NCBI GenBank assembly: GCA_031213475.1
Contig: JARUPZ010000030.1
Location: 2,663,371 to 2,727,370 of the forward strand
Origin: Nereocystis luetkeana
Lineage: Eukaryota > Sar > Phaeophyceae > Laminariales > Laminariaceae
DNA: 64,000 nt
Direction of reading: 5' to 3'
The translations under genes and the position numbers were made by a program. Below, piece after piece: positions 15,226 through 39,100 of the stretch; the first letter of the stretch is position 1, and each line of letters opens with the position of its first letter. The notes under the pieces are model-generated. The model was not told the DNA's origin and did not search any database. It saw only the letters and a program-made list of their open reading frames with translations.

Positions 15226-15228
15226 CTA

Positions 15229-18740: not shown

Positions 18741-18767
18741 TGATCTGTACCTGTCCGAGGTGTTAGT

Positions 18768-18860: not shown

Positions 18861-18925
18861 TGCCCTCTCTCCACCCTTCTTTGACCCGTGCCGCGGCAGT
18901 AGGGCTTCAGCTACTGTAGCAGTAA

Positions 18926-19036
18926 CATTACGGGGGATCATAGTAAATAGGACCTGCGGTACACACAACAACCTACATATTTCGCTATTATTGCTGACAA
19001 TATTTGGTCCTATTAACTCTGGCCCCCCGCAATATT
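18926..19036. mobile_element. H1 hairpin MITE, diverged
   Basis: ATTACGGGGGATCATAG on the left and ACTCTGGCCCCCCGCAATATT on the right; the centre CATATTTCGCTATTATTGC is clearly mutated. Confidence 0.78.
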
Positions 19037-19121
19037 AACAGTGCCGTTTGCCGCTACGGCAATACCGCCGCTATTACGCCACCTCGCACACAACCACGCC
19101 ATGCGATCCCACGGGCACTAC

Positions 19122-19232
19122 TATTACGGGGGGCCATAGTTAATGGGACCTATGGTATACATAAAAACCCGTACATTTACCCGTTTTCACAAACAATATT
19201 TGGTCCTATTAACTATGGCCCCCCGTAATATT
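19122..19232. mobile_element. H1 hairpin MITE
   Basis: Complete copy, CTATTACGGGGGGCCATAG to ATGGCCCCCCGTAATA. Centre ACCCGTACATTTACCCG is a private variant. Confidence 0.85.
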
Positions 19233-19427
19233 GGCCGAACCAACCGGCACTATACTGCTGCACCCGGGACTTTGGAGGGACCACCCCTACCGCCTGTGTG
19301 CCACAGTCTGACCTGTATGGCTCTTCAACTGAAGGGCTACCCGATAAGGTCGGAATTATCCGGCATGGACGTACAGCGTGATTCGCTGTACAGCAGTATA
19401 CACGCCCAAGCCATGGGGATCGGGGTC

Positions 19428-19510
19428 ACTGCAGTCCCGTTTGGGGGACAAAACTACTTAGAATTTGGCTGGTTTGTCCCCACATATAGGAGTGCGGTGC
19501 TAAAAGAGTG
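19428..19510. mobile_element. H2 hairpin MITE, partial
   Basis: Left arm CTGCAGTCCCGTTTGGGGGA. The right arm is degraded after GGTTTGTCCCCA. Confidence 0.65.
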
Positions 19511-19536
19511 TTTATCCTGTTATTTTTTTACCAGGT

Positions 19537-19660
19537 AATACGGGGGACCATAGTAAATAGGACCAAATACTGTTAGTAAAAATGATTAAATACATACCAG
19601 GTACCAGGTAGGTTTTTATGTATACCATACCTGGTAGGTAACTATGGTCCCCCGTAAATA
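19537..19660. mobile_element. H1 MITE carrying two independent CCAGG/CCTGG inserts
   Basis: Where other copies read ACATAGG, this one reads ACA-TACCAGGTACCAGGTA-GG (19595-19610). Where others read ACCATAGGTCC, it reads ACCA-TACCTGGTA-GGT (19628-19636) with a few bases lost after it. A further TACCAGGTA sits at 19529-19537, right at the left edge. Both internal events fall exactly on TA dinucleotides of the consensus. Confidence 0.85.
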
Positions 19661-20106
19661 GTTCTATCTCAAAACCATCTATTTCTGGGCGGCGGGGTAG
19701 AGACCTCGTGCGTTGGGTGGGAACCGCGAGCGATATTTGGACGTGGCCAGAACGAGCGCGGCGACGCGCAGCAAAGCACGCAAAAAAACGAGCAACAACG
19801 GGGTGCACAAACACAGCGCGGCCTCCTCGAATGAATGTCGAGGTTCTGTATCCGTTTCAACCCCTTCCAAGCCTCTTAATAATATAATGAAACAAGCACT
19901 AACAACAACAGCTGTCAACATCAAATTTTATGCCGCGGAGGGCACACGTGACCACACTGATTATGAGAGAAAAGCAAACGAAAAAAAAAAGAAGAGAAAA
20001 AAAAAAGTGTCGAACCCGATGAACTACTAGCGATTGTCTATGTAAAACGATGAACGACTATAAATACCAGTTATTTAAACACCAACAGGGTTCCACAACT
20101 ATATTG

Positions 20107-20190
20107 GGTTAACCCTTGTAGAGCAAATAGCAGTCCCGGATTGGGGATAAACCCGTCAAATTCCGAGTAGTTTTTGCCCTTAAAGAGGCG
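20107..20190. mobile_element. H2 MITE, degraded
   Basis: Left half AACCCTTGTAGAGCAAATAG...CAGTCCCGGATTGGGGA is recognisable. The right half is reduced to GTAGTTTTTGCCC. Confidence 0.5.
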
Positions 20191-20457
20191 TTCTCCGATA
20201 GAGTTTCGCCCTAATTTTTCTGAGGCTCCTCACTCATGGAGCTCCACGTCTCACCCGAACACTGAACACAGCAAAAAATCAGGTCGCACCCCGATGAATA
20301 ATCCCATGGCCCAATTGTACAAAGACGTCATTTTTGGTAACAAGATTGACATTTCGACGATTTTGGGATAAGGAGCCTCGTCCTAAAGAAAAATAAAACC
20401 CGAAATGTGCCACCTATATCGTAGTACGCGTCTAAAAACGGGACTGCAGTTTGCCCT

Positions 20458-20570
20458 GTTACGGGGGACCATGAGTAAATAGGACCTATGGTACACACAA
20501 AAACCTATATATTTACCTACCAGTATTATATTACGAACAATATTTGGTTCTATTTGCTATTGTCAGCCCC
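20458..20570. mobile_element. H1 MITE with a TACCAGTA variant insert
   Basis: The left arm has an extra G (CCATGAGTAAATAGG) and the right arm is eroded (GCTATTGTCAGCCCC). At 20518-20525 it reads TACCTACCAGTATT where sister copies read TACCTATT, a one-base-short version of the CCAGG insert. Confidence 0.72.
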
Positions 20571-20647
20571 AGCGACGGTTTCGCGGAAAAGTGCTAATAA
20601 ATACTCCCATCGTAGCACGACGCTATATATATACTCCTATACCCCCC

Positions 20648-20752
20648 CTTAACCTTTTAGGACTGCAGTCCCGTTTTGGGGACACACTACTTAAAAATTG
20701 AGTGGTTTGTCCCCCAAAAAGGGACTGCGGCACTAAAAGGGTCTTAAGACGG
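20648..20752. mobile_element. H2 hairpin MITE, well preserved
   Basis: TTAACCTTTTAGGACTGCAG...GCACTAAAAGGGTCTTAA. Flanking TTAA on both sides would fit a TTAA or TA target duplication. Confidence 0.8.
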
Positions 20753-20779
20753 TTGGTATTAGCGCACCCCGAAGTATTT

Positions 20780-20960
20780 ATCGGTCGCTGCTGCTACGGT
20801 TGATATTGTCGTTGTTGTTGTTGTTGTCACATTAACTCTTCGCCACAATACAATGCAGTCCGTGGTCGCAGGACAGGCTCCAATAACTCTGATGGGCTGG
20901 AAGAACACCTCACGGTAAAAATAAAAACGACGCAAAGAACAATATAACATGCTGCTGCTG
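20780..20960. repeat. GTTGTTG-rich dispersed repeat
   Basis: TTGTCGTTGTTGTTG followed by TCACATTAACTCTTCGCC. Relatives occur at 17855-17920 (GATTAACTCATCGCC) and 26860-26900 (TTACATTAACTCTCTG), so the TTG microsatellite is part of a larger dispersed unit. Confidence 0.5.
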
Positions 20961-21070
20961 TGTCTGTGTCTGGGGCCCCGAAAGAAAAAGCACCGGTCTT
21001 GCTATGGGCGTTATATACAGTAGGAGCGAACACGCCTGCCGTATCCAACACGCGAGACAACACAACCCTC

Positions 21071-21290
21071 TATTACGGGGGACCATAGTTAATAGAACCT
21101 ACGGTACACACAAAAACCTACCGTATATAATTACCATTTTTTACGAACAACACTTGGTCCTATTTACTATGGTCCCCCGTAATATTATTACGGGGGGCCA
21201 TAATTAATACCAGGTACCAGGTAGGACCTATGTTACACACATAACCGATATATTTGCCTCTTTTTACTAAAAACATGTTGTCCTATTTAA
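21071..21290. mobile_element. Tail-to-head pair of H1 MITEs with footprint-like inserts
   Basis: The first copy (21071-21185) is complete and carries TACCGTA at 21119-21125, where CCTATAT is expected. The second (21184-21290) starts inside the shared TAATATTATTAC junction and carries AATTAA-TACCAGGTACCAGGTA-GGACC (21208-21223), where the consensus is TTAATAGGACC. Its right arm is truncated after TTGTCCTATTTA. Confidence 0.8.
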
Positions 21291-21657
21291 GCAACAGTGG
21301 GGCCACGGAAGGTTTACACAGCAGCTGTGGCAGCGGCGCGCTTGAACTCGAGGTTCTCATCAACATGCCATACCTGGTGACACATACCGCTGCTGTGAGA
21401 CACCAGATACCTGGCAAACAACAGCGACAAACCGAAAAGTAAAAGAGGGGGAGCGGGCTGCGAGGACTGATGAACGCGTGTGCACACGAAAAAGATGGGC
21501 GTATACACGCAGAGCACATAATCAGGGGCCGAGAGTCAAGGGAAGGCCTATGCAACGTCACGGCAGCAGGGGCGCGGGCTGTCGACGATGCCCGTGGCGC
21601 CTACAACTACTATAGACAAACACACGATAGCATCAGGGTCTCTCACCGGCTTCTCTC

Positions 21658-24600
21658 TCACAGGAACCCCACAACCTTCCTGAACAGCCCAGTCTCCTCC
21701 ACCCGCAGCAGCCAAGTCGCCAAGCCCGCGAACCCGCCGAGGCCGCCAGCATCACAAGCATTCACCCGCTGTAGCCCGGCCCGCCCAGTAAGCGCCTCGC
21801 TTTCCCCACCTCCTCCTCCGCCGCTGCTGCCACCGCCACTGGTGAAGTCGTCGCTGCCCTCCCCCCTCCCAACGCCAGAGTTCCCCGCTTTCGTCTCCGG
21901 CCCCGCGCCCTTCACCCCCAGCTCCACGCCCGGCTCCACTCCCGGCTCCGCTGCCGGCTCCGCCCTTGGCTTCGCTAGCGGTACACAAATGCCGTCCGAT
22001 CCCAAGCGGACCTCCACCTTGTCTGGGCGGGCGTGAAACATCACCACCCAGCGTCGACGGCGCCACGCCCTCTCGGCCAGGGCTTGCCTCATCCGACCGG
22101 CGAGGAGCTCGCCGTACGACTGAGCGCGGTCCGCCTCGGCATCGCGTACGTCGGCGCTGGGCCTTCTCATCGTGGCGGCGAAGACAGCGGCGGCAGCAGA
22201 GGTTTCGAGGGTAACAGGGTTTCCACCCCCAGTGTCCTCGGAGCGAAGAGACACGGCGCTGTCTGGCTCTTCCTCTACCGTCGCGCTCGCGGCGGCAGCC
22301 CCGCGCGACTCCGTCTCGCTCCTTCTCCCCGCCACGGCGCCCCCTCTGTTGGCGGCGGTGCCGACGCCCCGCCTCGAGAGCGCCGCCGCCGCCCCCACAG
22401 ATCGCCGGGCCGACGCGACGTCGGCAGGCCTGCGCCCGTGGCCGTCCCGCGCGCCCACGATTGCCCCGGCAGACAGCAGGACGTCCACCGCGCCCGAGCG
22501 GTCGCAGTACGCGGCGCGGTGCAGGGCCGTCGTTCCGGAGGAGTCGGCGGCGTTAACGTCGGCCCCGCGCCGGATCAGGGCCAGCAGCACGCCCAGGTGT
22601 CCCTCGGTGACGGCCAAGTCAAGCGCCGAGCACCCGCTGTTGCCGGTGCGGAGCTCGACGTCGGCGCCGACGGAGAGGAGGCATTCCGTCGCCGCGAGGT
22701 AGCCCTTCGTCACCACCAAGTGGAGAGGCGAGCGCCCCTCGCGGTCCAGCGCGTCCTGGTCCGCCCCGTGAAGTAACAGGGCAATCACGGCCTCGGAGGA
22801 GCCTTCCGCAGAAGCGTCGTGGAGCGGAGTCCATCCAGCCTTGTCTGCCGCACCTACATCGGCACCGGCCGCGACGAGGGCGTCGACGGCGGGAGCGCTG
22901 TCAGAGAACGCGGCGCGGTGCAGCGCGGTGTAGCCGCGAGTGTCGGAGGCGTTGACGTCCGCCCCTCGGAGCAGCATCGCCCTCACGAAGCCCAGGTTGC
23001 CCTTGACGGCGGCCAGGTCGAGGGCCGACCACTCGTCGTCACCGACGCCCCGCCGATTGATATCGGCGCCGGCGTCCAGCAGGGCGGCCGCGGCTTCCAG
23101 GTGGCCGTACTCTGCCGCGAGGTGGAGCGGCGCCCTCCCTTCCTGGTCCATCGCGCTCTGGTCAGCGCCGTGGTGGGAGAGCGCGGCCACCGCGTAGGAG
23201 GACCCTTCCACGGCAGCGGCGAGGAGGGGAGTCCAGCCGCTCCCGTCTCGGGCTTCGAGGTCGGCCCCAGCCCGAACGAGGAGGTTGATGACGCCGTCCT
23301 CGTCTAAAAGGGCGGCGCGGTGGAGTGCGGCTCTTCCCGAAGCGCCGACGGCGTCCACGTCGACCCCGCTCTGGATAAGCTCCCGGACGACATCTAAGTG
23401 ACCCTCGTGCACGGCCACGTCCAGCACGGAGAGGTCGGTGTCGCCGCGGCGGAGGTCGCAATCCGCGCCAGCGGCCAGCAGGGCCTTTACCGTGCGCGAC
23501 CGGCCGGCCTGGGCGGCCAGGTGGAGGGGCGCCCGACCCTCTTCGTCGAGCGCGTCCGCGTTCGCCCCGTGTCGCAGGAGAGCTTCCACCGCCTCGGCCG
23601 AGCCTTCCGCGGAGGCGTCGAAAAGGGGCGTCCACCCGAAGGAGCTGTCTCTCGGATCGAGTTCCGCCCCAGCTTCGATGAGCAGGTCGACGGCTCCAGC
23701 TTGGTTGAAAAACGCGGCCCGATGCAGCGCGGTTCGGCCCTCGGAAGTGGTGGAAGAGTTGACGTTGGCGCCCGCCTCGATGATGGCTTTTATCACGTCC
23801 TGGTGTCCGCCGATGGTGGCGAAGTCAAGCGCCGAGCACTCGCTGCCCCCGTACCTGGGGCTGACGTCCGCGCCGGCCGCGATGAGTGCCTCCACCCCGA
23901 GGAGGTGGCCGCGCTCGGCGGCGAGGTGGAGGGGTGCGCGGCCTCGGCTGTCCATCTTGGTCTCCTTCGCGCCGTGCCCCAGCAGCCATACCACTGCGTT
24001 GGAAGAGCCTTCCGCCGCCGCGTCGTGGAGTGGGCTCCAGCCTATCGCGTCGGGTGCGTCGACGTCGGCCCCGGCCTCGGCGAGCACAGCGAGCCCGTCC
24101 GCCTGGTTGTAGAACGCGGCGCGGTGCAGCGACGTATAGCCTCGAGAGTCGGCGGCGCTCGCGTCGACTCCGTGCTGCAGCAGCAGCCTCATGATGTCCA
24201 GGTGCCCGTTGATCGCGGCCAGGTCCAGCGCCGTGCAGCCGTCCCCCGTGCACCTGAGTTCGACGTCCGCGCCGGCGGACAGCAGGGCCTGCACGGCCGG
24301 CAGGCGCCCGTGCTCGACCGCGAGGTGGAGCGGGGTGCAGCCTTCGCTGTCCAGGCAGTCTTTGTCCGCGCCTTTCTCAAGGATCAGCCTCACGACGTGC
24401 TCGTGGTCCAGGACGGCGGCAAAGTGGATGGTCGAGTCACCGCTCTTCTTGTCCTTCACGTCGACGCAAGAGAGGAGCAGGTCGGTCACGTGCTGCTCGA
24501 GGCCGATCGCGTCCGCGCCCGCTGCCATCAGCCGCTTCGCGCTGCTCAAGTCCTCCGCCTCGAGAGCGTGCTCGAGCGGACCTCGGAGCCACGTCGCCCA

Positions 24601-24693
24601 CTGCTCCGGCGTGGCCATTTTCGAGACCAGATTGAAGATGTGCTGCTCTCGGCCCCTCAACGCCGCCCTCTTGGACAGCCGGGGGTCGGACAT
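21658..24693 (-). CDS. Large ankyrin-repeat protein, single exon, 1011 aa
   Basis: An uninterrupted frame begins ATGTCCGACCCC at 24693 and ends TGA at 21658. A helical N-terminal region of about 80 residues (EQWATWLRGPLEHALEAEDL) is followed by about 21 ankyrin repeats (residues about 85-770) with TPLHLAA and LLxxGADV signatures. They form a four-repeat module of about 134 residues: S-ALDLA, then TALHRAAF, then GWTPLHDASAEGSS, then GRAPLHLAAE. The module recurs at residues 153, 286, 421, 555 and 688. After that come a disordered Ala/Arg/Glu segment, a basic patch (ALAERAWRRRRWVVMFHARP, about 871-890), an AEP/VEP stretch and a Gly/Ser run. Ankyrin stacks are protein-binding scaffolds; no enzymatic domain is visible. 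GC-rich codon use supports a live gene. TTCCTGTGAGAG at the 3' end could also be a splice donor, so an extra exon is not excluded. Confidence 0.93.
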   Translation of the reverse strand: MSDPRLSKRAALRGREQHIFNLVSKMATPEQWATWLRGPLEHALEAEDLSSAKRLMAAGADAIGLEQHVTDLLLSCVDVKDKKSGDSTIHFAAVLDHEHVVRLILEKGADKDCLDSEGCTPLHLAVEHGRLPAVQALLSAGADVELRCTGDGCTALDLAAINGHLDIMRLLLQHGVDASAADSRGYTSLHRAAFYNQADGLAVLAEAGADVDAPDAIGWSPLHDAAAEGSSNAVVWLLGHGAKETKMDSRGRAPLHLAAERGHLLGVEALIAAGADVSPRYGGSECSALDFATIGGHQDVIKAIIEAGANVNSSTTSEGRTALHRAAFFNQAGAVDLLIEAGAELDPRDSSFGWTPLFDASAEGSAEAVEALLRHGANADALDEEGRAPLHLAAQAGRSRTVKALLAAGADCDLRRGDTDLSVLDVAVHEGHLDVVRELIQSGVDVDAVGASGRAALHRAALLDEDGVINLLVRAGADLEARDGSGWTPLLAAAVEGSSYAVAALSHHGADQSAMDQEGRAPLHLAAEYGHLEAAAALLDAGADINRRGVGDDEWSALDLAAVKGNLGFVRAMLLRGADVNASDTRGYTALHRAAFSDSAPAVDALVAAGADVGAADKAGWTPLHDASAEGSSEAVIALLLHGADQDALDREGRSPLHLVVTKGYLAATECLLSVGADVELRTGNSGCSALDLAVTEGHLGVLLALIRRGADVNAADSSGTTALHRAAYCDRSGAVDVLLSAGAIVGARDGHGRRPADVASARRSVGAAAALSRRGVGTAANRGGAVAGRRSETESRGAAAASATVEEEPDSAVSLRSEDTGGGNPVTLETSAAAAVFAATMRRPSADVRDAEADRAQSYGELLAGRMRQALAERAWRRRRWVVMFHARPDKVEVRLGSDGICVPLAKPRAEPAAEPGVEPGVELGVKGAGPETKAGNSGVGRGEGSDDFTSGGGSSGGGGGGESEALTGRAGLQRVNACDAGGLGGFAGLATWLLRVEETGLFRKVVGFL

Positions 24694-24769
24694 GATGATG
24701 ATGGCGTGGAACGGACCTCTGTCTGGGCAGTGAACCGCCCAGACCCTCTCGTTCAGATGTTTTCGTGCT

Positions 24770-24960
24770 GCTCAGCTGCAGTACAGTAGCAGCTGCTGTT
24801 GATGCAGCTTTGCCTGTTTCTGTCGCTACCTCTGTTGATGCTCACCGTTGCTGCTGTTGTTGTTGTTGCTGCGACTGCTGTTGCTGTTGCTGATGCCGTT
24901 GCTGTTGCTGGTTCTGCTACTGCTGCTGGTGCTGCTGCCGCGTCTGACTACACGCTGCTA
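24770..24960. repeat. Degenerate (CTG/TTG)n upstream of the ankyrin gene
   Basis: Imperfect GCTGCTGTTG-type trinucleotides about 80-270 bp upstream of the ankyrin start codon, within what would be its promoter or 5' UTR. No TATA box or other element could be assigned. Confidence 0.75.
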
Positions 24961-26240
24961 CTCGTAGGCTTCTTGATTGATCATTCAGACTTGCGCCCTC
25001 TCAAACCATTTTCCGAATTCAGACCTTCTCCGCTTTCTCCGCTGGATTCGGACAAAACAAACGAAGCAAAGCCGTCAGCAGTCAGCACCGTGACCGCCAA
25101 GCACGAATATACTGGAAGAAAAGTGTAGTCCGCCAAATATTAGACAACCCAGCCCCAGACGGACGACTTTGACCTATGACCTATGTACGATCACCGCGAC
25201 TATACGTAACTACGGTATGTACTGACTGCTGTATACTATCGTAGCTTTTCCGTGCGCGTATCGCAAGACGACCGTCGTGTCTGTGGTCACCGAGGAGGCT
25301 GGTATTCACACATGGCAGCACTCTGATTTATCATATATTCCACGCTCTCGTACTATACTCCGACTTTCAACCTTTCAGGACCGCAGTCCCGTTTTGGGGA
25401 CAAAGTAGTTAGAATTTGAAAGGTTTGTGGCCCACAACGGGACGGCAGTTCTAGAAGGTTAAACCCTGCACAGGACACGACAGCCCGTCAAAATAGGCGG
25501 CATCAAATGTATCACACAGGTACGCAACTGAAAACATGAGTCGTTGTTCGAAAATTTACAAATTTGAAAGTTCAAATTTCATCGGATCTACCGATCATGC
25601 TGATTGGCTGCTTGGCTGAAAGCTCTTAACATATATTCATCCCAGGAACCCGGGTCATCTCGCCTCCTACTTTGCTACTAACTCTATTTTGAGAGTTTTG
25701 GTAATCTGTCGCCTTGGGCGAAGAAGGAGGTGTGCTGGTACCGAGACGAGATAGGGACATAAAACATGGTGCTTGGGTTCTCCAGAGTTGTGGACTGCCT
25801 GGTGGGCGTCGTCGCACCATGGTAAGCCCTTACGAATTTCGCGATCCAGGTTAGCCTGAAGTCGAGACATAGAAGGAGTTACAGCAGCAGTTCCTTGGGT
25901 GGGTTGTATTCCTGTCTATTCTTACCATCACCCCCACCCATCTTGCAGGCAAGCACGCATTGTTTATACCTCCCGCTCGCTCGCTGGTGCTTGCCACCAG
26001 CCAAAGGGTCGCACTAGCTGTAGCCCTCGAGGCGTTCGGGTGGCTTTTGTTGTTTTTGGCGTGGTTAGATCATGTCTGAAAGGCTTGCAGTGTGCTCTTT
26101 TCACCTCGACTATGTGCAAGGTGCGGAAGAATCGTGGCATTCTGCGCCTCAGCAGCCAGCCACCGAGGGGTGAGATACCCCGCGGCGTACGACTGCAGCT
26201 CGACGACCGCACGTCAAATCAAAATGAGCGTTATGCATGG
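24961..26240. other. Intergenic stretch with an H2 MITE and weak coding relics
   Basis: An H2 MITE lies at 25370-25466 (CCTTTCAGGACCGCAGTCCC...GTTCTAGAAGGTTAA). Minus-strand frames at 25667-25870 (SRLQANLDREIRKGLPWCDD...) and 25964-26212 (RFFRTLHIVEVKRAHCKPF...) have coding-like composition and lie in the same direction. They could be remnants of a retroelement polyprotein, but I recognise no domain. Confidence 0.3.
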
Positions 26241-26249
26241 TTTCACAGT

Positions 26250-27770
26250 TTCACAGATGTTCCCAGTACCCGCAGTACAAACATCCCAAGTACTCTGAGT
26301 ACGTACTGGTACCTAGAGTATCAAGTTTTGAACGCGTAAATACTGCCAGCACTCGCAGTATGTACGTACACTCCCCCGAAATACTGCCAGCACTCTCGAT
26401 GAAGTACTCCAGTTGCCCACCCCGAATGTAATTCGTAATTTGCTCCAACTCCCACTCGCTGGACCATCCGTGTTGCAATTACCATCCGTGCCCGTTTTGC
26501 AATAAAACGGGGATGGTATTATCGAAACGGTGCACAGATGATCGACGCCCAAAATATCCTCCGTGAACGCCTTCCCCGGGGCGCCTAAAAACCCCACGGC
26601 GAAAATTGAAAATTCCCCTTGCCGGGGTGTTACTCGTACGAGTACGAAGTCTCTTTTTTTCTGTTCGAGGCACAACTATTAATATTAATAGTCCCGCGAC
26701 GAACTCACAAAATCGCACACTTTGCCGCGGACCTCTGGCGATGGAACCCACCACGACGTCGGGCCTAGATACACAACATCTACGCACGAGAAAGCATTCA
26801 ACAAGCGGAAGGGAAGTTACGCACTTTCGGCGTTGCGCACCGGTTCACTTGTTACTTTGCTGTTGTCGTTGTTGTTGTTGTTCTTACATTAACTCTCTGA
26901 CCGTGGTCACACAAAGGTGCTGGAGCCCTATTAATAGGAAGATCCGAAAAACAAACAAAAAATCGAAAATTCGGCTGCCTAAAAATACTCGAGACGAAGA
27001 AAGCGCACACGAGCTAAAACCAATGTGCAAACTGAAGTAACATGGCCGCGGGTATATCCTCTCAACTTGTAACGTTGCAAGTCGTGTGTTTTTCGGCCGG
27101 CACGGGTCTCGAGGTGGTGCGCGATTTCGTACGTATGATAATGGGGGGATTTTTAAAATTGGAGAAATGAAAACAACGAGGCGGCCAGCAACAACAGCAG
27201 TAGCGACGACAATAACAACAGACAGCGACAACAACTATGTTGCCGGAAAATAATGCCTTGGATTAATTGGAACTCCCTGTGGGACGGCCGCCCAGGGCGT
27301 TATCAAAGTTTTTCGTGCATCCGCGGCGTTTGTTTTTCGGGGGGGGAGAGGAGCGTTCACAAGCCCCGGGGCGTCCACAGAGGATATTACATACCCTGGC
27401 ATTACGGTATACCAGGTACGTCATACTCCGAGCATACTGCGCATATATATTGAGAGTATTTTTGTACCAGTACGTACGTATTCCGAGTGTTCGCAGTACT
27501 CAAAATACCAACGGACGAAATACTGCCAGTATTATACTTGGGAATACCCGCAGTACAGAACCCTGAAATACTTGAAGTGCAGCAGTGTTCCACAGTCAGT
27601 ATTGAACCCCGAAATACTGCGAGGGGCGGTATGTATCTCCGCAGTACAGAATCTCGGAATACTGCGAAAACTCGCAGTATCTCGCAGTACATGAAGCCCA
27701 AATACTGCCGAGTGCACGGAGTACCTGAAGTAATTTCTCTCGGAAATACGTTTGCTCTACTCCCGGGTAC
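26250..27770. repeat. Fold-back-like inverted structure, about 1.5 kb
   Basis: The outer zones (26262-26440 and 27410-27770) are both made of AAATACTGC/GCAGTAC half-sites. Inside, 26530-26600 and 27330-27395 are inverted relative to each other: GCGCCCCGGGG and GCGTTCACGGAGGATATT on the complement of the left side, GCCCCGGGGCGTCCACAGA and GGATATT on the right. Further in, GTTGTCGTTGTTG faces CAACAACAGCAG. The arms are diverged. No transposase frame was found between them. Confidence 0.5.
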
Positions 27771-28261
27771 TGGGAGCTTCTGTGCATGGATTGCACCAGT
27801 ATCTACATGCCTGCTGTATACCAGGCTACCGGTAGCCCCGAGTGTATCTTCAGCCGTACCTGGTACATGCCAGAGATACCTGGTACCTCGCGCTCATCAG
27901 CGGGGTTTCGCTTTTGACTTTTCTGGTCTATGGGCGTATATCTAGCCCAGTAGAATACGGAAGAAACCGACACTATAATACCGGATTTGCCATGACAGGA
28001 TGGGCATTGGGTACAGCGGCGAACGGCAGAGTACGTAGAGAGGTGGTCGATGGGATTTTGATACTCGATCCCATAAACTTGGAGCGGTGAGTTGCCTGGG
28101 CTTCCCAGCTAGTTTTTAGTAGGCTAGCCAACCACCGCCTTTTGTCTACTACAGCAAGACATAGTCGGCTGGCGCTGGACGACTACTCGTAAGGACAGGC
28201 AAGCGAAGCGAGCCACCCCCTCTCCCCTTCTCCCCATATATATGTTGCATACATACATATA

Positions 28262-28770
28262 AAAAGGTTGGGCTGGCGTCGGTTGGCGACGACGCTGTGA
28301 AACACACCTCTCACTGCGTGAGCTAGACAACCAGGGTACCGTTTTTTTTTCGCGGACACCCCGGCTGGCGGTCGAGTTAGATCATTTGTACGGGGTGGAG
28401 AACCTTAGCTCCGCACAAGGGGAGTGGTCGTATCACCCAGTGTGTATATGGCTAAGGCACCCAAGAGGCAGATACACATTATACCCGTCGCTATCTCTAG
28501 GAGTGGCCACACCAGAAAACGGAATCAATTCATTCGAAGCTGTCAACCATACGCAAGTCCGCCTCGAAAGCGGTTCCTAGTAGGGTGCAGCTCACCCTTC
28601 ATGCGACTCACCGAACACCTCATGGGACTTTTTGCTCGGTGCAAGAAATTTCTGCCTGGTCGATGAAAAACCAACTTGCTACGTCCCAGCATCGTAGGGA
28701 TACGAAGGTCTATGGTCATACGACTACTGCCATGCATGGCATGAGGACTCCCCACCCCCCCCACCCCCCT
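28262..28770 (+). mobile_element. C-tailed dispersed repeat, full-length copy
   Basis: Starts GGTTGGGCTGGCGTCGGTTG and includes GTGAGCTAGACAACCAGGG, AAGTCCGCCTCGAAAGCGG and CCATGCATGGCATGAGG. The C tail is interrupted (CCCCACCCCCCCCACCC). A short direct repeat (GGCCAAGGTGGCCCAGCCGG, twice) follows at 28773-28840. Confidence 0.75.
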
Positions 28771-28859
28771 CCGGCCAAGGTGGCCCAGCCGGACGCGGGC
28801 CCGGCCCGGCCAAGGTGGCCCAGCCGGACGCGGGCCCGGCCCGCCCGCCTTCTGGCGCT

Positions 28860-31240
28860 CCCGCTGAAGAGGGGCGAGTCGTACGCTACGGGTATTCTGG
28901 TATTTAGCGTCATTTTTAACGCAAATCGTTAGATATACTATAGGTCGTCTCAGCTGGGCAACTTCATGTTTAGTCTTGATGCAGTATACCTGGTACACGA
29001 AACACGAAACAGGTGTATTTTATGCTAAAGTTCGTCTCAGGTTTATGCCGTCCCAGTTCAGGGGTGTCTCTTTCCTTCACGTTGTACCTTGTATATGTTA
29101 CTGGCTTTGTCGTACCGGTGCGGCAGCTGCACTCCAAACCTTTTATGTACGTACGGCAGGCAGTCCAAACCTTTATGTACGCACGGCAGGCAGTGTACTA
29201 CCAGGTACCTGGTATCGTTTAACGGCCACGGAAGTTCGAGGAACAACCGACGCTCTTTAAGTACGCGGTAGCGAACGGTGGCATTTGTCGTGTGCATTGG
29301 GCCGTGGCGGAAGGCTGCGTAGGTGCCACCATGTTGATCGGTAAAGCCCAAGCCCCTTCGTTTGACGGGTCTCGTTCGACGCCGACGGCACCATCGGCAC
29401 TCCCATCCGCGCCGGCGCCGTGGATCGCGATGGGTTGATGGGCCGTGAGGTACAGCAGATCTCTCTACTCCCACTCTCTCGTCCCGTGATATCACGGAGA
29501 AATGCGCACCCCCTACGATATCCATACGTCCGTACCGTGTGTTAAGTCTATATATAGATCGACTCGATTTGTATTGTTTGACTCGTTCTCACCGAGTACG
29601 ACGATGAAAGCTACGACGGGGCTTCGAGCTTTGTTGTTGTTGTTGTTGTCGTTGTTGTTGTCGTGGTTGTTACGTACTGGCACTGCTCCTGTCAAAGACA
29701 GCTGGTGATACTACACCCCGTTGCTGCTCACGCTATCAACACGATAAAAGCTTCACACCAATATCATATACCTGGTACCTGGTGTACTGCTGTACGGCAT
29801 GATGAGGCTTGCTCACCCCTGGAGAAGGTGAGTATCCACGGAGATGTTCGTGCTTGGCGCCTAAGGCCGACCCTCCGACTCGAACCCGAACCCCAGGCCA
29901 GTGACCGCTGCTACGATGCCGTGTGCTTGGTAAGACGCTAGGTTTGTTTCGGCCGGCTTGGATGCTGTGCTTGGAAATACTCTATATGGGTCGGTTCTGC
30001 CCGCTCCGGATGGTGTGGCCTGGAGAGACTCTGAGTCGATTGGGCCGCTTGTAGTGTACCCCTTGGCACCCCAGAGTGCGCAAATGGCTACCTTGGGAAG
30101 ATAATGCTCACTATCAGCAGGTGGCCACCTCCGGGTTTGATACACGAAGGGAGCGGCGGCAGTGTGATACCGAAGTCAAACAGCAATGCATGTTTGCGCG
30201 TCACGTTTCGTAGTAACTCCATACTTCACCTACACTAGGTACGAAACAGCAGCATGGTATGGCATGATACAGGCAGTGCCGCGTCACGGTTGGTTGGTTC
30301 GAGCACGGACAGTTAGCGCCCATACGATACAAGACGGTGGTACGGTATGTACGCTGGTGTACGGCACGAGGCAGCCGGGCTTCGAACCAAGGACCTCCAT
30401 GTATACCCGGTTTACCATACCGTGTCATGAGGGGATTGGGGATGGTACAACGTACACCACCGGGGCTACCGGGCCTCTGGATCTGCTGGAAACCCAAACG
30501 TGCACCCTGGGTATATGGTACCAGCCCTGGTGTGGTGTTGTCTGTACCACGTACGTGACACGGTGTTTCATGAATTTGTGATGGTGATTTTTCAACAGAC
30601 GTTTTGTTTTGCTCCTCACGATTCGGCGGAATCTACTGACTGTGGTTGGTGATCCACTTGTTAGTCGTGCCGACCCATAGCTCCACGGGCGCTGCTGTCG
30701 CCAGGTTGTTTGGACACGTTTATTCCCCCCAAATGGGTTAATATATTCATTCGTGCATAGTATGTCGGTAAAAAACATGCCCCACGGACGTACCAAGCTA
30801 TTCTTGAAATTTTCACACCGTGAGGATTTCCTGCCTTCCCCAATCCAACCCTCTCGGGGGTGTGTGAATGTAGGCGGCGTATCCCCCGTGTGTGAGTCTT
30901 GAGCAAAAGCGTTCGTGAGTGCCTCGAGGCGGTCACCGCTTCTGCGCCCAGTACCCACACCCTTCCCGCACGACCGAGCCGATGCCTTCGTTTGCGGCGG
31001 CGACGCTTGAAAAAAAAAAATGCAATTGGATATTCATGCTCGCCGCTACCTCTCTTGCTGTTTTTTGTGCCGCTGTTGGTGCTGGTGCTGCTGGTGCTGT
31101 TGTCGGCCATTGTTTCTGTAAACCGGATCGCAGTTCTTAATAAGCCAGCGCTCCTGAGAAGAGCTGCTGCCCTGGACAACGTTCATGGTTGGCACATCAT
31201 CCGTGCTTTCTGGACACACGTAACCCCCCCCCCCCCCTTT
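28860..31240. other. Upstream intergenic region of the hydrolase gene
   Basis: No complete gene is seen. At 29199-29214 there is the palindrome TACCAGGTACCTGGTA. A minus-strand tRNA-like phrase (TCGTAGCAGCGGTCA, then GGTTCGAGTCGG) lies near 29870-29935, and another B-box-like GGTTCGAAGCCC lies near 30390, but neither folds as a tRNA by eye. At 31035-31207 plus, a hydrophobic frame followed by NRIAVLNKPALLRR and HGWHIIRAFWTH ends at a GTAACC donor. It could be an upstream exon, but its phase does not join the exon at 31623. Confidence 0.3.
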
Positions 31241-31244
31241 CCCG

Positions 31245-31525
31245 CACACCGGAAATTAAATCGACTCATTGAAGCTGTCGTCCATATGCAAGTCCGCCTC
31301 ACAAGCGGTTCTTCGTAGGATGCAGCTCACCCCTCATGCGACTCGCCAGACACCTCGCGGCGCTTCGCGTTTGGTGCAAGCAATGTCTGCCTGGTCGGTG
31401 AAAACCAGACATGCTCCGTCCCGGCATTGTAGGGATGCGAGGGTCTATGGTCATACATACGACTCCGACCATGCATGAGATCGAGTACATCTCTCCTATC
31501 GAGTACACCCCACCCCCCCCCCTCC
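31245..31525 (+). mobile_element. C-tailed dispersed repeat, 3' half, just upstream of the hydrolase start
   Basis: From ACACCGGAAATTAAATCGAC to GATCGAGTACATCTCTCC and GAGTACACCCC with a C run. A second C run (31225-31238) precedes it, as if the copy were inserted at, or captured, a C tract. It ends about 100 bp before the first recognised coding exon. Confidence 0.75.
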
Positions 31526-31622
31526 CCTTCCCGCCACCGCCTCCACCACCTCCCTCTTGATGTCACAATCTGCTGTGTCTACGGCACCATTGCGTGAAAC
31601 TCTTAACCCTTACAGGAGCACG

Positions 31623-33725
31623 ATGACGTCCTTCGTCCTTCTGCCATCGGCGGCTGACCGCCTCCCTTTCCCCTTCGGAACCTTAGCACAGTGAGTACCT
31701 GGCGGGTAGGGGTGTGGTGTGAAGTGCTGGGGGTAGGGTAGGGTGGGGGTGGGGTGGGGCGGGCTGTGGTTGTGATCTAGGCGTGGTTGCGATGCGGCGC
31801 GGTGCGTCATGCTGTGGCGTGGCGTGTAGTGTCGGCCCTCTTTGTTCGCGCGTGTACCTGTTTTCTGTGGGGTGCTTGCAACGTAAACCCCATGGGCGCA
31901 TTCAGCTGTTGTTTGTGCGAACCTGCTAGCGTCACCGCTGGTCCTCTGTTTACCCACCTTGCCGCGCAGAGCGACCCAGCGATTTTGGGGGCAATTATAC
32001 GGTTCGGGCTGCTTTGTTACGCTGCCGCCTCCGCCGTTGGGTCGCCAGTGGCGATGGTGGTGTCGATTGTTGTGGTGTCTGTGGCGGTGTCGATGTTTTG
32101 TGGTGGTTGTGTTGATGGTGTTGGCGTGTTGGGGATGGTGGAGGCGGTGATGATGGTGATGGTTGGCGGTGGTTTTGGTGGTGGAAGTCGTGCCTACCGC
32201 GGCGCGATCGTTGCACAGTTTTCTCCTACTGTAGCTCGTGCATTTTCTGGGGTGTCCCCCCCTGTATATACAAACAGGTCTCGGTTGCGATGGGCAAACG
32301 CGCAGATGAACCGTTCACCACATATAGCCGTATAGGGGTATATGAAGGACTTAAGCACCGCCTCTCCGCAACTATTAGTAGCCTTTTGTACGCGTTTCCC
32401 CCCCCGCCCACTACAAGCCGTCATCGTCCTTAGATAAAAAAATGCACACGAAGGAGGGCCGAAAAACAAAACAAAACAAAACAAAACAAAACAAAACAAA
32501 ACAAAACAAAAGTAAAAAACGAAGAACAGTCTTGCGTGCCCATCCGCCCTTCTTCGGAATGTTTATAATGCGTACCCGGCAGGCGTTTTGGTTGTAAATC
32601 CGGGTAATAAGATAAGACACCCCCTGGGACGAACTTCGAGTAGATTCTCTGCAAACCCAGGGGGGCGGCACACACATCGATAGGGGTGGCTTTGAAAATA
32701 TCTCGACGAGAGCTTTTTATCCAGTAGATGCATCAGTCGCTCGGTGATTTGCACGTTCTCCATTCGGTCGAGAAAAAAATCAGCATTGAAATTCCTTTCG
32801 AGGAGTGGTGTTGGTGTCATATTTCCGTGTCACACGGTGTACCGGTTTCACGGTAGGCGCTTCTGTTGTAACGCCCCGCCCGCCCTCCCGTCCGGAACAC
32901 CCCGGGTGCCTTTGCCGCCGCCGCCGTGACCGCCGTGACCGCCGTGGCCGCCTTGCACGTTTTAGAACTCCGCAGCTGACGCTTGTCCTGGCCGGTGGAG
33001 GGTACGTGGTATTCTTGATCCTGTTCCTGCCCCTCTACGCGATCTCCTTCATCGTCACGGCCACGGGGGCGTGGTTGGCTCTTGCGGGAGGCGTGTACAT
33101 GGGGGGGAGGGGGCTGACACAGTACATCAGCTATCCGGGGACCTCGATGCAGATTCAGAGGAGCATCGAGAAGGAGTACTCCAAGAACGTCAGCAGCCGC
33201 CTGGTGGGTGTTGGATACGTGGGGTGTGGCGTTTGGGGAAGTGTCTTGCGTCTAGACGGGTCCTACTAGGAGGATAAGGGTGGTGCGCCTAGGCTTCCTC
33301 CTCTTCGTGTGGACGGTGTGCCCCCTATCCCCTATACAAAATGATCGTATCTCTGGAAAGCCCTTGTATATCAAGCTACGAAAACGTGTATTGTAATATA
33401 CCAGGCACCTGATATATGGGAAGACTTATCGCACAACCGGGGATTTTTCGCATGCATCCCCGTTTTTAGCCGTTGAGGCGCCCGTCTAGGTTTTTTCTGG
33501 TGGGCTATCCGTCTTGGGGGTAAAAAAGTAAAAGTGCCTTCCCCCAGCATATTTGATGGTCGGGGGGGGGAGGGGGGTGGGACTCTTCGTCAAGTTGTTT
33601 GCGCGAAGGCGCGAGCAGCGTTTCTGTCGCACTGCTGTACGCGCTGACATCACATCTATATTATGGCTTTGTTGACGGTTTTGGCATTGATTGTGTACTT
33701 TTGAGCACCCCCCCCCCCCCCTACC

Positions 33726-33756
<31 letters not shown>

Positions 33757-36112
33757 CGTTGTAGGGATGCTAGGGTCTATGGTCTTGCGACTACAGTACG
33801 GCCATGCATGATGAGGAGCACACATACCCCCCCGCCCCCCCCCCCCTCCCCCTCCTTCTCCCCCCTGGCCTGCCTAGGTTTCTTACGTGGGCGCGCTGCG
33901 TCTCTGGCTTCAGCTGGTGCGCGACCTTACCGTGGTGCCGGCGAGCATGACCCAGTTCCGCTCTCTTCACGAGGACGTACGGGAACGAGGAAAGAAGGGG
34001 GACATCTGGGTGCTTCTCAGAGCGCTCGAGGAGGTGAGAGTGGTGCGCTGAGGTAGAGGCATTGGGGGGGTTGGGGTGGAGCGGGGGTAGGAGAGGGGGT
34101 GGGGTTGGAGTTGGGAGTGGAGGGGCGGGGGGGGTGGGGGGATTCGTGGCAGGGGAAGGTTCGAGGCGCGGGTTTGGAGTTGTCGGGGTGCGTCTGGTTG
34201 TGGTGTGACCATGACACCAAAAACCAGGCCCGGTTTTATTCATCGCCGTCGATTGTTTGCTTCGCTCACGCCAATAGTCCTCCCGCCTTCCACTCCTGCT
34301 TCCCCCCCCCCCCTCCCCCCCGCCCGCCCGCCCGCCCCGCAGTGTACCCATTGCTGTCTCTAGGAGGGGTCACACCAGAAAACGAATAATTTCATTTCAA
34401 GCTGTCATCTCATATTATCAAGTCCGCCTCACAAGCGGATCGTGGTGGAATGCAGGTCGCCCTCCAGTGTGACTTGCCCCCAACACCTCACGGCGCTTAG
34501 CAAAAGTTGGTGCAGGCAATTAATATCTGCCTGGTCGGTGTGTGAACCCCGACATGCTCCGTCCCGGAATTGGATGCAAGGGTCTATTGTCATTCGACTA
34601 CTTCCGTGCAGGACATGAGTACCACCCCCCCCCCCCCCCCCCCTCCTCACCTTCTTTTCTCCGGCCGTCTGCTATCTCGCAGCTGACGGCACGCGCCAAC
34701 ATGCCAAGGGAAGGCGGCGGCGGTGGCGGCGGTGCCAGGGGCGGGCTTCCCTCCGGAGCATCCTCGGGTTCTGCGGCCGCCGCGGCTGCCGCTGCCGCCG
34801 CCGCCGCCGCCGCCGGTGCTAATGCGCTCACACCGCCAGCGTTAGCGGAGGCGGAGTCGCTGCTGGAGTGCCTGTCGGATTTTGTACCCGCCCTCGAGGA
34901 GGCCTTGGGCATGACGAGCAAGGTGGGGGGTTGGGGTTGGTGGGGGCTGGGGTAAGGCTGGGGTTGGAGGGGTAGGGTGGGGGAGTGGGGGTGGCGGTGT
35001 GGGTCGGGGGGGGGGGGATGGGGAGGGGGGTGTTGTCGTTGTGCGTGGGCGTTTACCGGTGATCGAGGATGATTGGTCTGTGTCTTTCGCCCCCCCCCCT
35101 CTTGTCCGTCGGTCACTTTTTTCTAGTGCAGCGAGGCGGATGCAATATTTAGGGGGGGGGGGTGGGTTGGCTGCGTAGCCTCCCGCCCGACTGAACCGAC
35201 TCACTAGGTGGTATGGTGAATGACTTGGGCGATGGTCGGGTACGTATACGGCTTACCTAGCTTCCTTAGGTGACTGACGGGTTTTGCTGACTGACGGGCC
35301 GACGGAATAACGGACTGACTGGCCGACCGACAAGCTGGCAGTAATTTTTCGGCCTGATTTTAATGGATTATTTTTTAAGTGAGTCAGTGAGACTGAGGGA
35401 GGGAGGGAGGGAGGGAGGGAGGGAGGGAGGGGGGGAGAGAGGGAAGGGGGGAGGGAGTAAGTGGGTACAGGAATGAGATGCAAGTGGTCGCACTGAATTT
35501 TGGGTGCCTTCCCCCCCTGCCCCCCCCCCCCCCCTTATGCCTCGCGTGTTTCTAGCTGGCGGAGTGCCTCAGCACGTACGACTTCGATCGGGCGAGACAG
35601 GCTTTGCTCATTCCGGGCGTGGGCAACAACGATCGGTGCGTTCAGGGTTGAGTGCTTCAGCGTTCAGGGTGCGGGGCGGGAGGTGGAGGGGGGAGGGGGC
35701 AGTGTAGTGCAGTAGTGCTGTGTTGGTATGAATGGGGATGCTATGGTTCGTGGCGAGGGGTGTGGGTTTGATTCTGCCCGCCGATGATGGTTCCCGCACG
35801 CCTCCCCTAGCCAGCGCCGTGAGTAGGACTACCGTCAGCTCTTCTGCAGCACTGGCACCGAGGCAATAGCGGTAGCTACAACAAACAGGTAACTGCTGTG
35901 ACGGTAACACTAGCAATAGCTGGAAGAGTATATGTTGTTGGTGGCAGTGGCAGGAGCTGTAGCAGTTGTGGTCGCGGTAGCAGGAGGAGAACTAGTACCA
36001 GCAGTAACGGCAGCGGCGACTGTAGGAGCAGCATCAGCGTCGCCAGCAACACCAACAGTGTCGGCAACACCGGCAGTGATGCCAGAGGCAAACAGTGACA
36101 ACGCCAACAGTA

Positions 36113-36145
<33 letters not shown>

Positions 36146-39100
36146 AGCAGCGATAAGGGCATCACGGCTGTACGCAGCAGTAGATGCAGCAGCAGCACTC
36201 ACAGGAACAGTGCCGTTTACAATCACCAACGTCAGTATCAGCAGAACCAACACCAGCAGCGTCAGTCATTAGCCGCGGTAACCGTATCATCAACAGCCAC
36301 GACACCAATACCAGTAGCAGCAGCCGCAGCAGCAGCAGCAGTAGTAGTAGCAGTAGTAGTAGCCGCAGTAGCAGCAGCAGCAGCAGCAGTAGTAACAGCA
36401 GCAGCGGCAATAACGAGTGCAACAGGGATAATAACGTCGTCACTAACGACGGTAACATGAACATCAACAGCTACAACGGCAACAGCAACAGCACCCAGCA
36501 CCAAAAACAGCCCAACCGGTCGCGACACAACACCAAAGCTACCCAATATCTTCCCGCCCGGTGAAAATCCGACGTGCTCCGTCCCGGCATCGTAGGGATG
36601 CAAGGGTCTACGGTCCTACGCCTACGACCATCCATGATATCGAGTACACCCCCCCCCCCTCACACCCACACACATGGAGGTACATCACCTAACACCCCCC
36701 CCCCCACACACACACACCTCCCGCCCCGCCCCAGCTTCGCGCACGTATTCGCTAGCCTCGAAGCCCTCGCCTCAACGATGATAGCGCTCTCCCGGCAACT
36801 CCATCCCCGAAGCGCCAGAAACACCGCCACCGCCACCTCCGCGACCCCATCCAGCTCCAGCGGAGACCCCGGAGCCGCCGAGGAGGAAGGCGTGGGTTTG
36901 GGCGGGGTCGACGGAGGGGGAGTACCGACGGAAGAGGAGGTTACGCCCGGGGATGCCGGGTTCCCCGGGGCGATGGTGAGGGGGTGGTGGAAGTCGGTCA
37001 GGCCGTACACTGGGGCGGCCGGATTCGGGCTGATGCGGGAGGAGATGCTCATCAAGAGCAACGCACAGCAGGTGTGATGGGGCGTTTGGGGAGGGGGGAT
37101 AGGGGGGGGTCGGAGCGGGGCGCGGGGGGGGGGGGGGTGTACTCGATAGGAGAGATGTACTCGATCTCATGCATGGCCGTAGTCGTATGACCATAGACCT
37201 TCGCATCCCTACAATGCCGGGACGGAGCATGTCGGGTTTTCACCGCGGGGGGGGGGAGGGGGAGTTGGCGGGGGGCATAGGGGAGGATCTGGGGGGGGGT
37301 GTGTGCTCGATATTATGCATGGGCGTGGTCGTATGACCATAGACCCTCGCATCAGTACAATGCCGGGACGGAGCACGTCGGGTTTTTCACCGACCAGGCA
37401 GACATCGTTTGCACCAAGCAAGCGCGAAGCGCCGTGAGGTGTTTGGCGAGCCGCATATAGGGTGAGCTGCGTCCTCCGAAGAACCGCTTGTGAGGCGGCC
37501 TTGCTGTGGATGACAGTGTCAATGAGTTGATTTAGTTTCGGGTGTAGCCACTTCCAAAGGCAGCAGTGGGGGTACTATGTGACTACCTCGTGGGTGCCTT
37601 ACCATAAACACTACCAGGTACGCGATACGACCATTCTCCCTTGCGGGGAGTAAAGATTCTCCGGTCCGCACAAATCATCTATTAATACAACTCGATCGCC
37701 ACCTGTGACCGACCAACGGCCAAAAATATAAGCGGTACCCTGATTGTTCAGCTCACGCGGAAGTGATCGCTATGTCTTACAAAGTCGTTGCCAACCATTT
37801 TGTATCAGGTAGGGGGGAGGGGGAGGTAGGCAGTCGGATAAGAGGCGAAGAGGTGTAGGTAGACCGGCAGGGTGTGGGGCTCGTGTTTTATGGCGAGGGT
37901 TTATATTGATTTGCTTGGTTTCCTAGAGAGAGAGAAGCCGAACATGAAAGTGTGCAGGGGAGAGAGTCCCCGCGCTTGCTTGGTTGTTGATCGGTTGAAT
38001 TTTGTTGTCGCCCCGCGCATGCTTCATCAGCAATCAGCCGCCTGTCGCGCCTGTTCTTTTGGTTCGCATGTCGCTGTGATCATCTCGAGGGACAGCGGGA
38101 CTGCAGCCGGGCGCTTCTGCGTCGGTCATCTTTTGTTTACCCCCGTCCCCTGCTTCGTCAGCCCCTCCCGCTAGTGCGTGGTGCGAGAGTAGAGGAAGGC
38201 TTGTGGCACCCATCTCGCTCACTTTTGTGTGGGGGGGGGAGATTTCCGTGGTGCCCCGTCCGTGTGTGCGTGCCTCCCTTGGTCGAACGCCGGCGTGTGT
38301 GTTGTTTTTGTGTATTCGCGGGACAACATCTAACCCTGCCTTGTCCTGTCCTGTCCTGTCCTGCCTTGTCCTGTCCTGTCCTTCCCCGCCCCGTCCTATC
38401 CTGTCCTTCCTCGCCTCGTCTTGTCCTGTCTTGTCTTGTCCTGTCCTTGTCCTGTCCTGCCCTTGCCCTGTCCTGTCCTGTCTTGTCCTGTCCTGTCCTG
38501 TCTTCCGTCTATTTTAGATATGGCTTGCCATGTCCGACGGCACCCTGCTGGACTGCTGCTACTGCCGCGCGTACGGGGGAAGGAACGCAAGCGTTAGCGC
38601 TAGCGGTATCGACGACGAGAGGAGCAGCACGGGGTGCGTGCTCTTCTGCAACCCGAACGCGGGTTTCTACGAGAGCATGGTGCTGGCGGGGGACGGCAGC
38701 CGCAACTGGTAAGGCGGGCTATGCCACTGTATCCGTTGATGTACACTACAGTAGTTGTACAAATTGATGGTGCGCAAAATATATAGTTACTCTCTGGTGT
38801 CGAGTAACATGTGCCCCAGCACTCGGGTGCGTATTTTGAGGGGTGATTGTAAGCCTTGGAAGTGCGTGCGTACTACAAAAAACATGGCGGTTGTAAGAAG
38901 GCATGTCAAGCCAAGGTAGGCCAACCCAGCCCAGCTCAGCCCAGCCCAGTCCAGCCAAGACCTTGTCCTTCTTCGGAGGCCCGGGAAAACCGGCAATCTG
39001 GCGTGATACAGGGTATGCGCCTAAAAAACGAAACGTGACAAATATCACCCGCCTTTTGTGAGTCCCTGCCCCCCGCCCCCGCCCCCCCCCCTCCTCTGGA

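Follow-up and report, generated by a model that had tools for sequence, protein, structure and literature searches.

Mariner elements of the Mos1 tribe target TA dinucleotides, and the central A or T of the footprint left by Sleeping Beauty arises from a mismatched overhang. For the latter element the footprint is given as TACAGTA or TACTGTA (PMC4378557), and the inner cut is described as lying 3 nt inside the end for both Sleeping Beauty and mariner (PMC7827188) and 2 nt inside for ISY100 (PMC2170065). Footprint lengths are reported as 2–4 bp for Tc1/mariner elements (PMC7913693), 0–4 bp for the pogo element Passer (PMC9976928) and 1–4 bp for Osmar5 and Stowaway, where an element re-entering the TA of an earlier footprint has also been described (PMC1925063). 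Here we analyse the word TACCWGGTA (W being A or T) in a stretch of 64,000 nucleotides from the kelp Nereocystis luetkeana (assembly GCA_031213475.1, contig JARUPZ010000030.1, positions 2,663,371 to 2,727,370 of the forward strand), referred to below as the window. The word is very probably the excision footprint, or scar, of a cut-and-paste DNA transposon of the Tc1/mariner type.

Frequency of TACCWGGTA and its insertion at TA

TACCWGGTA occurs 27 times in the window, against a mean of 0.56 and a maximum of 4 in 100 dinucleotide shuffles, and it leads all 9-mers in which a central base separates four bases from their reverse complement, the runner-up, TATA-W-TATA, being present 11 times. TA stands on both flanks of 27 of the 148 CCWGG words, compared with five for the second flank pair. 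Observed and expected numbers are 27 and 0.62 for words flanked by TA on both sides, 24 and 15.2 (maximum of 25 in 200 shuffles) for those flanked on one side, and 97 and 143.8 for unflanked words. The forms with central A and central T are both present (14 and 13), which is weak support for a remnant of the Sleeping Beauty type because any strand-symmetric process gives similar numbers on one strand. In the whole genome (465,085,209 bases in 1,987 contigs) we counted 182,395 copies of the word, about one per 2.5 kb, against 1,744 of the reversed word, our sole genome-wide control, an excess of roughly 100-fold. A wider sample of 344 kb, made up of the window and 28 ten-kilobase stretches (L-numbers below give stretch and position outside the window), holds 129 perfect sites at 120 loci, of which 111 are single and nine are tandem doubles. 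In 264 kb, CCWGG lies between TAs 87 times against 2.0 expected.

The polarity of the change was read from sister repeat copies. Each scar was collapsed to TA, to nothing, to TATA, to TACC or to GGTA, or kept in its full form, and ungapped matches were sought in the rest of the sample, for 84 scar loci (those of the first 264 kb, of L012 and of the first 1.2 kb of L011). A matching sister of any form was found for 21 loci and none for 63. At 12 of the 21 matched loci TA was the best-supported empty form, which is the insertion site expected of the IS630-Tc1-mariner group: the scar adds 7 bp, or 14 bp in the case of doubles, at a pre-existing TA, and doubles collapse to one TA as singles do. 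The TA form was found at 35 sister places for window position 10175, 30 for 19595, 43 for 21208, 4 for 37612 and 22 for 49580. Outside the window the numbers were 42 for L012:2762, 11 for L016:7235, 10 for L016:8529, 15 for L016:8820, 38 for L027:5925 (where the match to the zero form is slightly longer at one place), 36 for L030:2012 and, weakly, 1 for L014:869. Some of these positions coincide. H1, a repeat that is palindromic and roughly 110 bp long, has 21 matches in the window, counting both full and partial ones. One of its TAs is shared by 10175, 19595 and L030:2012; the inner TA of either H1 arm is the position of 21208, L027:5925 and L012:2762; and the three L016 loci fall at one position of an inverted array. 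With the weak L014 locus left out, the 12 loci come down to some five separate positions, spread over four types of repeat. Coinciding loci may reflect a hot TA or the copying of a scar together with its repeat.

An ancestral origin of the word, with the TA form of the sisters arising by deletion, is barely credible. Some filled forms are found in more than one copy (19628 with L019:3833, and L032:6377 with L032:6557), as an ancestral word would predict, but an empty form at up to 43 sister places for a single locus, in four repeat types, would require that an exact deletion of 7 or 14 bp recur in each. The initial annotation, which had read the inserted words as footprints of a TA-targeting element, had named two findings that would speak against this: a short form derived by deletion, and a lack of TA specificity across the genome. 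Where tested, neither holds: the abundance of the TA form among sisters answers the first and the count of 182,395 against 1,744 the second, and the proposal is supported by both the TA short form and the hundredfold excess of TA-bounded words.

Variant scars, a candidate source element and target choice

An unaimed scan for insertions of 3–22 bp that set a repeat copy apart from two or more of its sisters returned 49 events. Six were 7 bp long; four of them were bounded by TA, all four being CCWGG and lying at two distinct H1 positions, and the remaining two were TCCCTGG, one base off the word, and a shifted reading of one of the CCWGG events. TA-bounded events of 5 bp carried CAG three times (TACWGTA), CCG once and GCA once. 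An event of 12 bp, TA-CCAGGCAGGG, was found in H1 at L019:3899 relative to two sisters, and an event of 14 bp is a double scar. Over the full 344 kb the scan returned 76 events, 23 of them TA-bounded, adding an insertion of CCAG (TACCAG) at L037:2225 with 12 sisters and one of TAGG in H1 with 16 sisters, for which a tandem duplication is also possible; the L027:5925 event of the smaller scan is absent from the larger. CCG, CCAG and CCWGG make up the graded set that should result when CCAGG overhangs are trimmed and joined. Scars of 6 bp are dominated by CCAGGG (12, against 0 for CCAGGA, 1 each for CCAGGC and CCAGGT and 2 for CCTGGG), which fits a terminal repeat whose sixth base is G.

A candidate source element came from comparing the words downstream of the 134 one-sided TACCWGG sites in the 344 kb. 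These gave 34 recurring 10-mers, and among the matches listed (20 of the 34) one pair in L017 stood out. It bounds a stretch of 998 bp including both TAs (L017:5457–6454), reading TA-CCAGGGATGCGTATTTCC ... GGAAATACGCATCCCTGCCTGG-TA, so that a TA stands at either end of this single copy. In that one copy the ends CCAGGGATGCGTATTTCC and CCAGGCAGGGATGCGTATTTCC form terminal inverted repeats, as Tc1/mariner elements have. The exact inverted match of 15 bases is hardly a matter of chance, because just 34 pairs of half sites in the 344 kb are no more than 3 kb apart. The left TA of the element is preceded by TACCTGG, which places the insertion in the TA of an earlier scar; excision of the element would yield a double scar. 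Furthermore, the CCAGGCAGGG scar at L019:3899 is identical to the first 10 nt of the right end of the element. At this right end the extra CAGG looks like a duplication in tandem, a variant that CCAGGCAGGG shares. An element with the CCAGG...CCTGG ends that the initial annotation had proposed to look for was found, and the longer scars extend into its inverted repeat.

These variants bear on the length of the overhang. If the usual mariner overhang of 3 nt, CCA, overlapped only at the terminal mismatched A, fill-in would give CCWGG, and a cut 3 nt in is what is described for Sleeping Beauty and mariner (PMC7827188). Most 5′ ends listed for the Mos1 tribe start CCAGGTGT (PMC3419177), and TA-CCA-TA with TA-TGG-TA is mildly in excess in 264 kb (59 against 31.6), partly through H1's own sequence. 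We nevertheless regard this route as improbable: it should leave mainly CCA or TGG, whereas CCWGG exceeds expectation by 87 to 2.0, and the CCAG, CCAGGG and CCAGGCAGGG scars need sequence past the third base. A piggyBac origin does not fit the TA target and the 7 bp remaining, piggyBac being described as targeting TTAA and excising seamlessly (PMC7351741).

The scars also share a pattern in their flanks. At positions ±7 from the collapsed TA the frequency of A or T is 0.85, against 0.51 (83 loci, z 8.7), with A further favoured at −3, −5 and −6 and T scarce at −1. In a held-out check on a further 80 kb, A or T occupied 61 of 80 such positions against a background of 0.53, and for the pooled loci, the discovery set included, both sides carry it at 85 of 122 against 0.28. 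The 6-bp variant CCAGGG/CCCTGG has the same signature (0.83, n = 9, z 2.7). It is absent at TA-bounded CWG, CGAG/CTCG, CCGG and CCAG/CTGG (z −1.2 to 0.9), among them TACWGTA, TACGAGTA/TACTCGTA and TACCGGTA; weaker excesses were observed for CA/TG (z 3.6), any N5 (3.0), any N3 (2.8), CCA/TGG (2.4) and CCG (1.8). The signature predates insertion, since empty sisters have largely the same flanks, and it looks like an enzyme's choice.

A protein-binding site under selection, regulatory or chromosomal, is a very unlikely source of this pattern. The word is palindromic, its flanking A/T is symmetric, and the distance of 11 bp between the central W and the ±7 positions is close to a turn of the helix, all of which would suit such a site. 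The 7-bp insertions, however, occur in repeats whose sisters have largely the same flanks, so that the flanks precede the word; some 182,000 copies and the tandem doubles are unlike selected sites, and the continuation into an inverted repeat is left unaccounted for. Equally unlikely is a self-propagating unit of 7 bp, the alternative that the initial annotation itself had offered, or a slippage-born one, whereby TACCAGG, once present, is duplicated in tandem and copied elsewhere through errors of repair or replication. Nine doubles among 120 loci, where 1.5 would be expected, fit such a unit, and a single A-to-T change could make a same-orientation double mixed. Against this, five of the nine doubles are of mixed orientation (AT in four, TA in one), 111 of the 120 loci are single, and 63 of 84 have no matching sister, so most flanks do not recur in the sample. 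Slippage would not select A or T at ±7, and CCAGGG, CCAGGCAGGG and the L017 element would be left unexplained. The mixed doubles and the ±7 signature weaken the 7-bp unit.

Other TA-bounded words were noted in passing. TACTG or TACAG is inserted at TA at L019:2417, L020:3527 and window position 33792, relative to 4–8 sisters (6–9 in the 344 kb scan). These three sister-supported insertions of 5 bp, which also count in favour of excision footprints, make TACWGTA a second, 3-bp footprint class of the Sleeping Beauty type in the same genome. It numbers 99 against 34 expected in 264 kb, an excess that partly reflects CAG-rich sequence. The overhang logic proposed below for CCAGG also fits TAC(A/T)GTA with the 3-nt overhang of Sleeping Beauty (PMC4378557, PMC7827188). 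TACGAGTA/TACTCGTA is eightfold enriched (54 against 6.5) and dispersed (window 14556, 24959, 26631 and others; L013–L032). It had no sister-supported insertion event in the unaimed scan and lacks the ±7 signature; it may be one more family of footprints or a motif of a different kind.

Scar sites and host repeats

Several scars of the window lie in H1. TACCAGGTA at 10175–10183 adds 7 bp at ACC-TA-TAT (35 TA-only sister places; the filled form matches three). At the same TA, the double scar TACCAGGTACCAGGTA at 19595–19610 adds 14 bp (30 TA-only places) and the shorter scar TACCGTA at 21119–21125 adds 5 bp (two sisters). A second TACCAGGTACCAGGTA double, at 21208–21223, adds 14 bp at TTAA-TA-GG, with 43 TA-only places. 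The TACCTGGTA at 19628–19636 is unclean, its 7 bp being accompanied by a nearby loss of 6 bp, and its filled form is also present in the H1 copy at L019:3833. The empty-site form is ambiguous for two TACCAGGTA scars, one at the edge of an H1 copy (19529–19537) and one in a TA-rich tract (56462–56470). In a dispersed repeat that ends in a poly-C/G tract, the C-tailed repeat, TACCAGGTA at 37612–37620 adds 7 bp relative to four sister places; both sisters aligned within the window are without TA, and the TA-bearing one, L028:1650, lies outside it and reads ACAC-TA-CG. The initial annotation had listed five independent insertions of CC(A/T)GG plus TA. Four are clean (+7 bp at 10175 and 37612, +14 bp at 19595/19602 and 21208/21215), the fifth, 19628, differs from its sisters by a net +1 bp, and full independence does not hold, 10175 and 19595 occupying the same H1 TA. 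Of its shorter versions at consensus TAs, TACCG at 21119 is indeed a TA-bounded insertion of 5 bp, whereas the sequence around TACCAGTA at 20518 is rearranged and the site unclean. The region assigned to the phenomenon, 19595–37620, does contain sites but is only part of their extent, which covers the whole window and the genome.

Doubles of mixed orientation, TACCAGGTACCTGGTA, lie at 29199–29214 and, in a 15-bp minisatellite with 22 TA-only sister places, at 49580–49595. A degenerate second unit follows the scar at 29769–29784 (TACCTGGTA, then TACCTGGTG) and 42203–42218 (TACCAGGTA, then TACCCGGTA), and two TACCTGGTA scars start 20 bp apart at 27857 and 27877 (27857–27885). The remaining scars are without an aligned sister in the window: TACCTGGTA at 5130–5138, 28987–28995, 43279–43287, 48103–48111, 54869–54877, 60388–60396 and 60858–60866, and TACCAGGTA at 14782–14790, 27410–27418 and 63768–63776.

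H1, a frequent host of scars, is found at 2467–21287 and 52354–52462; it is flanked by TA, has the ends TTACGGGGGACC and is perhaps itself a TA-targeting miniature inverted-repeat transposable element (MITE). The C-tailed repeat is present at 5879–6410, 11471–11842, 28281–28769, 31246–31535, 37250–37800, 39082–39410 and 44319–44695 and in shorter pieces. L016:6976–9572 is an inverted, partly tandem array of AGCTATTGTTT-like units with scars on both arms. Three copies spaced 332 bp apart at 48585–49548, identical over the 300 nt compared, each contain TACTGGTA. An ankyrin-repeat open reading frame of 1011 aa occupies 21658–24693 on the minus strand as one open frame without a perfect scar inside. 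L015 encodes a NADAR domain, described as a feature of one Gypsy lineage of Ectocarpus (PMC12477816).

The H1 motif is also present in three contigs of public metagenome-assembled genomes (MAGs), L010, L011 and L012 (JALZUL010000250.1, JALZWC010000131.1 and JALZWD010000061.1). These are probably kelp host DNA within bacterial MAG records, since they are named (g1_MAG, g3_MAG) in the manner of a study of Nereocystis luetkeana blades (PMC9238374). L012 has three TACCWGGTA sites in 8 kb, one of them a clean 7-bp insertion in H1; L010 looks chimeric, with H1 at its start followed by a different kind of sequence. In a search of viral contigs neither of two H1 patterns was matched, and the presence of TACCWGGTACCWGGTA in nine contigs was put down to chance.

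Other routes to inverted ends were also followed. TA-flanked inverted repeats with exact ends of 8 or 10 bases were, among the matches listed, mostly H1, the C-tailed repeat, minisatellites and local inverted repeats. Inverted-repeat pairs starting with CCWGG were, among those listed, only the scars on both arms of the L016 array; the seeds missed the L017 element. The half sites of the window alone had no shared continuation. Two further downstream recurrences among the matches listed were set aside, GTTGGCAGTCT at different offsets in the window and L030 and the microsatellite-like GTACGTAC, as was a TACCTGGGG stretch, apparently a piece of some other dispersed repeat, common to L013, L028 and L032. 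At these three places (L013 (−), L028 (+9941) and L032) AAGTACCC-TACCTGGGG is followed by GTACGTACG-like sequence and holds a one-sided scar word.

Proposed mechanism and relation to known systems

Considering the scars and the L017 ends together, we propose that the element inserts at TA, best within W-N6-TA-N6-W, and duplicates it. Its terminal repeats would start CCAGG(CAGG)GATGCGTATTTCC, and a cut of the non-transferred strand 5 nt inside each end would leave a 3′ overhang CCAGG on both chromosome ends. These overhangs could pair C-G, C-G, G-C and G-C around an A:A mismatch. Repair of the mismatch would leave two TAs with either CCAGG or CCTGG between them, and the rarer CCG, CCAG, CCAGGG and CCAGGCAGGG would result where the ends were trimmed or more of them was kept. 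The fresh TAs of a scar would allow a second visit, producing tandem doubles in either orientation.

Several points weigh against this reading. Among the other nine matched loci, a different empty form fits equally well or better at five (L030:2260, L030:7440, L031:2110 and window positions 19529 and 56462), where the flanks are mostly TA-rich, and the filled form alone is matched at four (L019:3833, window 19628, L032:6377 and L032:6557), as if the scar had been copied along with its repeat. Several of the 12 supporting loci that share an H1 or L016-array position may be a single event copied in this way, and 10175 and L030:2012 each match the filled form at three places. Relative to two other sisters, the event at L019:3899 becomes a 5-bp insertion, CCCTG, that is not bounded by TA. 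Doubles are about six times more frequent than random re-hits with all TAs equal would make them (9 against 1.5), and therefore either target preference is uneven or doubles arise otherwise. The two ends of the L017 element differ by the 4-bp CAGG duplication, its longest open stretch does not exceed 112 codons, the DDE transposase that the initial annotation had asked for stays a prediction, and no second copy was found in the 344 kb, compared with 120 scar loci; the terminal repeat as proposed draws on n = 1 plus the longer scars. Finally, the dominant scar is 5 bp long, longer than the 2–4 bp that inner cuts of 2–3 nt give in Tc1/mariner elements and than the upper limit of 4 bp given for Passer. 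We take 2–4 bp to be the usual property of the members studied, not a strict definition.

One element copy against 120 loci in 344 kb suggests that scars exceed elements about a hundredfold. A broader reading has a real, if slightly less than even, chance of being right: that germ-line excision in a kelp lineage has been frequent enough to leave scars about a hundredfold in excess of surviving copies, through a transposase with a 5-nt stagger whose nearly self-complementary CCWGG overhang forces one product. The scars would then rank with the most frequent dispersed words that the genome contains. The transposase may belong to a Tc1/mariner lineage of its own, or even to an excision system under developmental control. 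Excision traces are usually few and varied, whereas here one exact scar occurs about every 2.5 kb. This means that the number, targets and re-visits of past transposition could be counted from a single assembly, and that the presence or absence of scars could supply dense markers for kelp populations. It also raises the question of why scars seem so greatly to outnumber elements. The transposase, on this reading, should cut 5 nt inside the ends, which would be unusual.

Within limited searches of the literature on footprints in brown algae and on mass footprints, no report appears to describe TACCWGGTA scars, and the articles listed for the literal word TACCAGGTA look unrelated by title and the start of the abstract. 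One likeness, judged by description, is with the Tc1/mariner MITEs of the brown alga Ectocarpus (TcMar-N1_Ec32 and others), where about 12,000 Mariner-Tc1 copies, mostly non-autonomous, are reported; the words ‘footprint’ and ‘excision’ are absent from the main text on these elements (PMC12477816). Passer resembles the system inferred here in its TA duplication, short terminal inverted repeats and small footprints, but these are of 0–4 bp and include no CCWGG class in the description available (PMC9976928). The Stowaway MITEs and Osmar5 of grasses share terminal repeat fragments beside TA and renewed insertion into the TA that an earlier footprint provides, the very event that would make doubles in the kelp (PMC1925063); their footprints are heterogeneous and of 1–4 bp, in contrast to one dominant, exact product of 5 bp. 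For the Mos1 tribe of mariner, most of the 5′ ends listed start with CCAGG, as here (PMC3419177), but the Mos1 repeat continues CCAGGTGTACAAG and the mariner cut lies 3 nt inside, whereas the kelp repeat would read CCAGG(CAGG)GATGCGTATTTCC. A further parallel is with Sleeping Beauty and other Tc1-type elements, which share the TA target, a short end remnant between TAs and its central A/T (PMC4378557, PMC7827188); the kelp remnant differs in being CCWGG, of 5 bp and not 3 bp, and in its number, some 180,000 perfect words in one genome.

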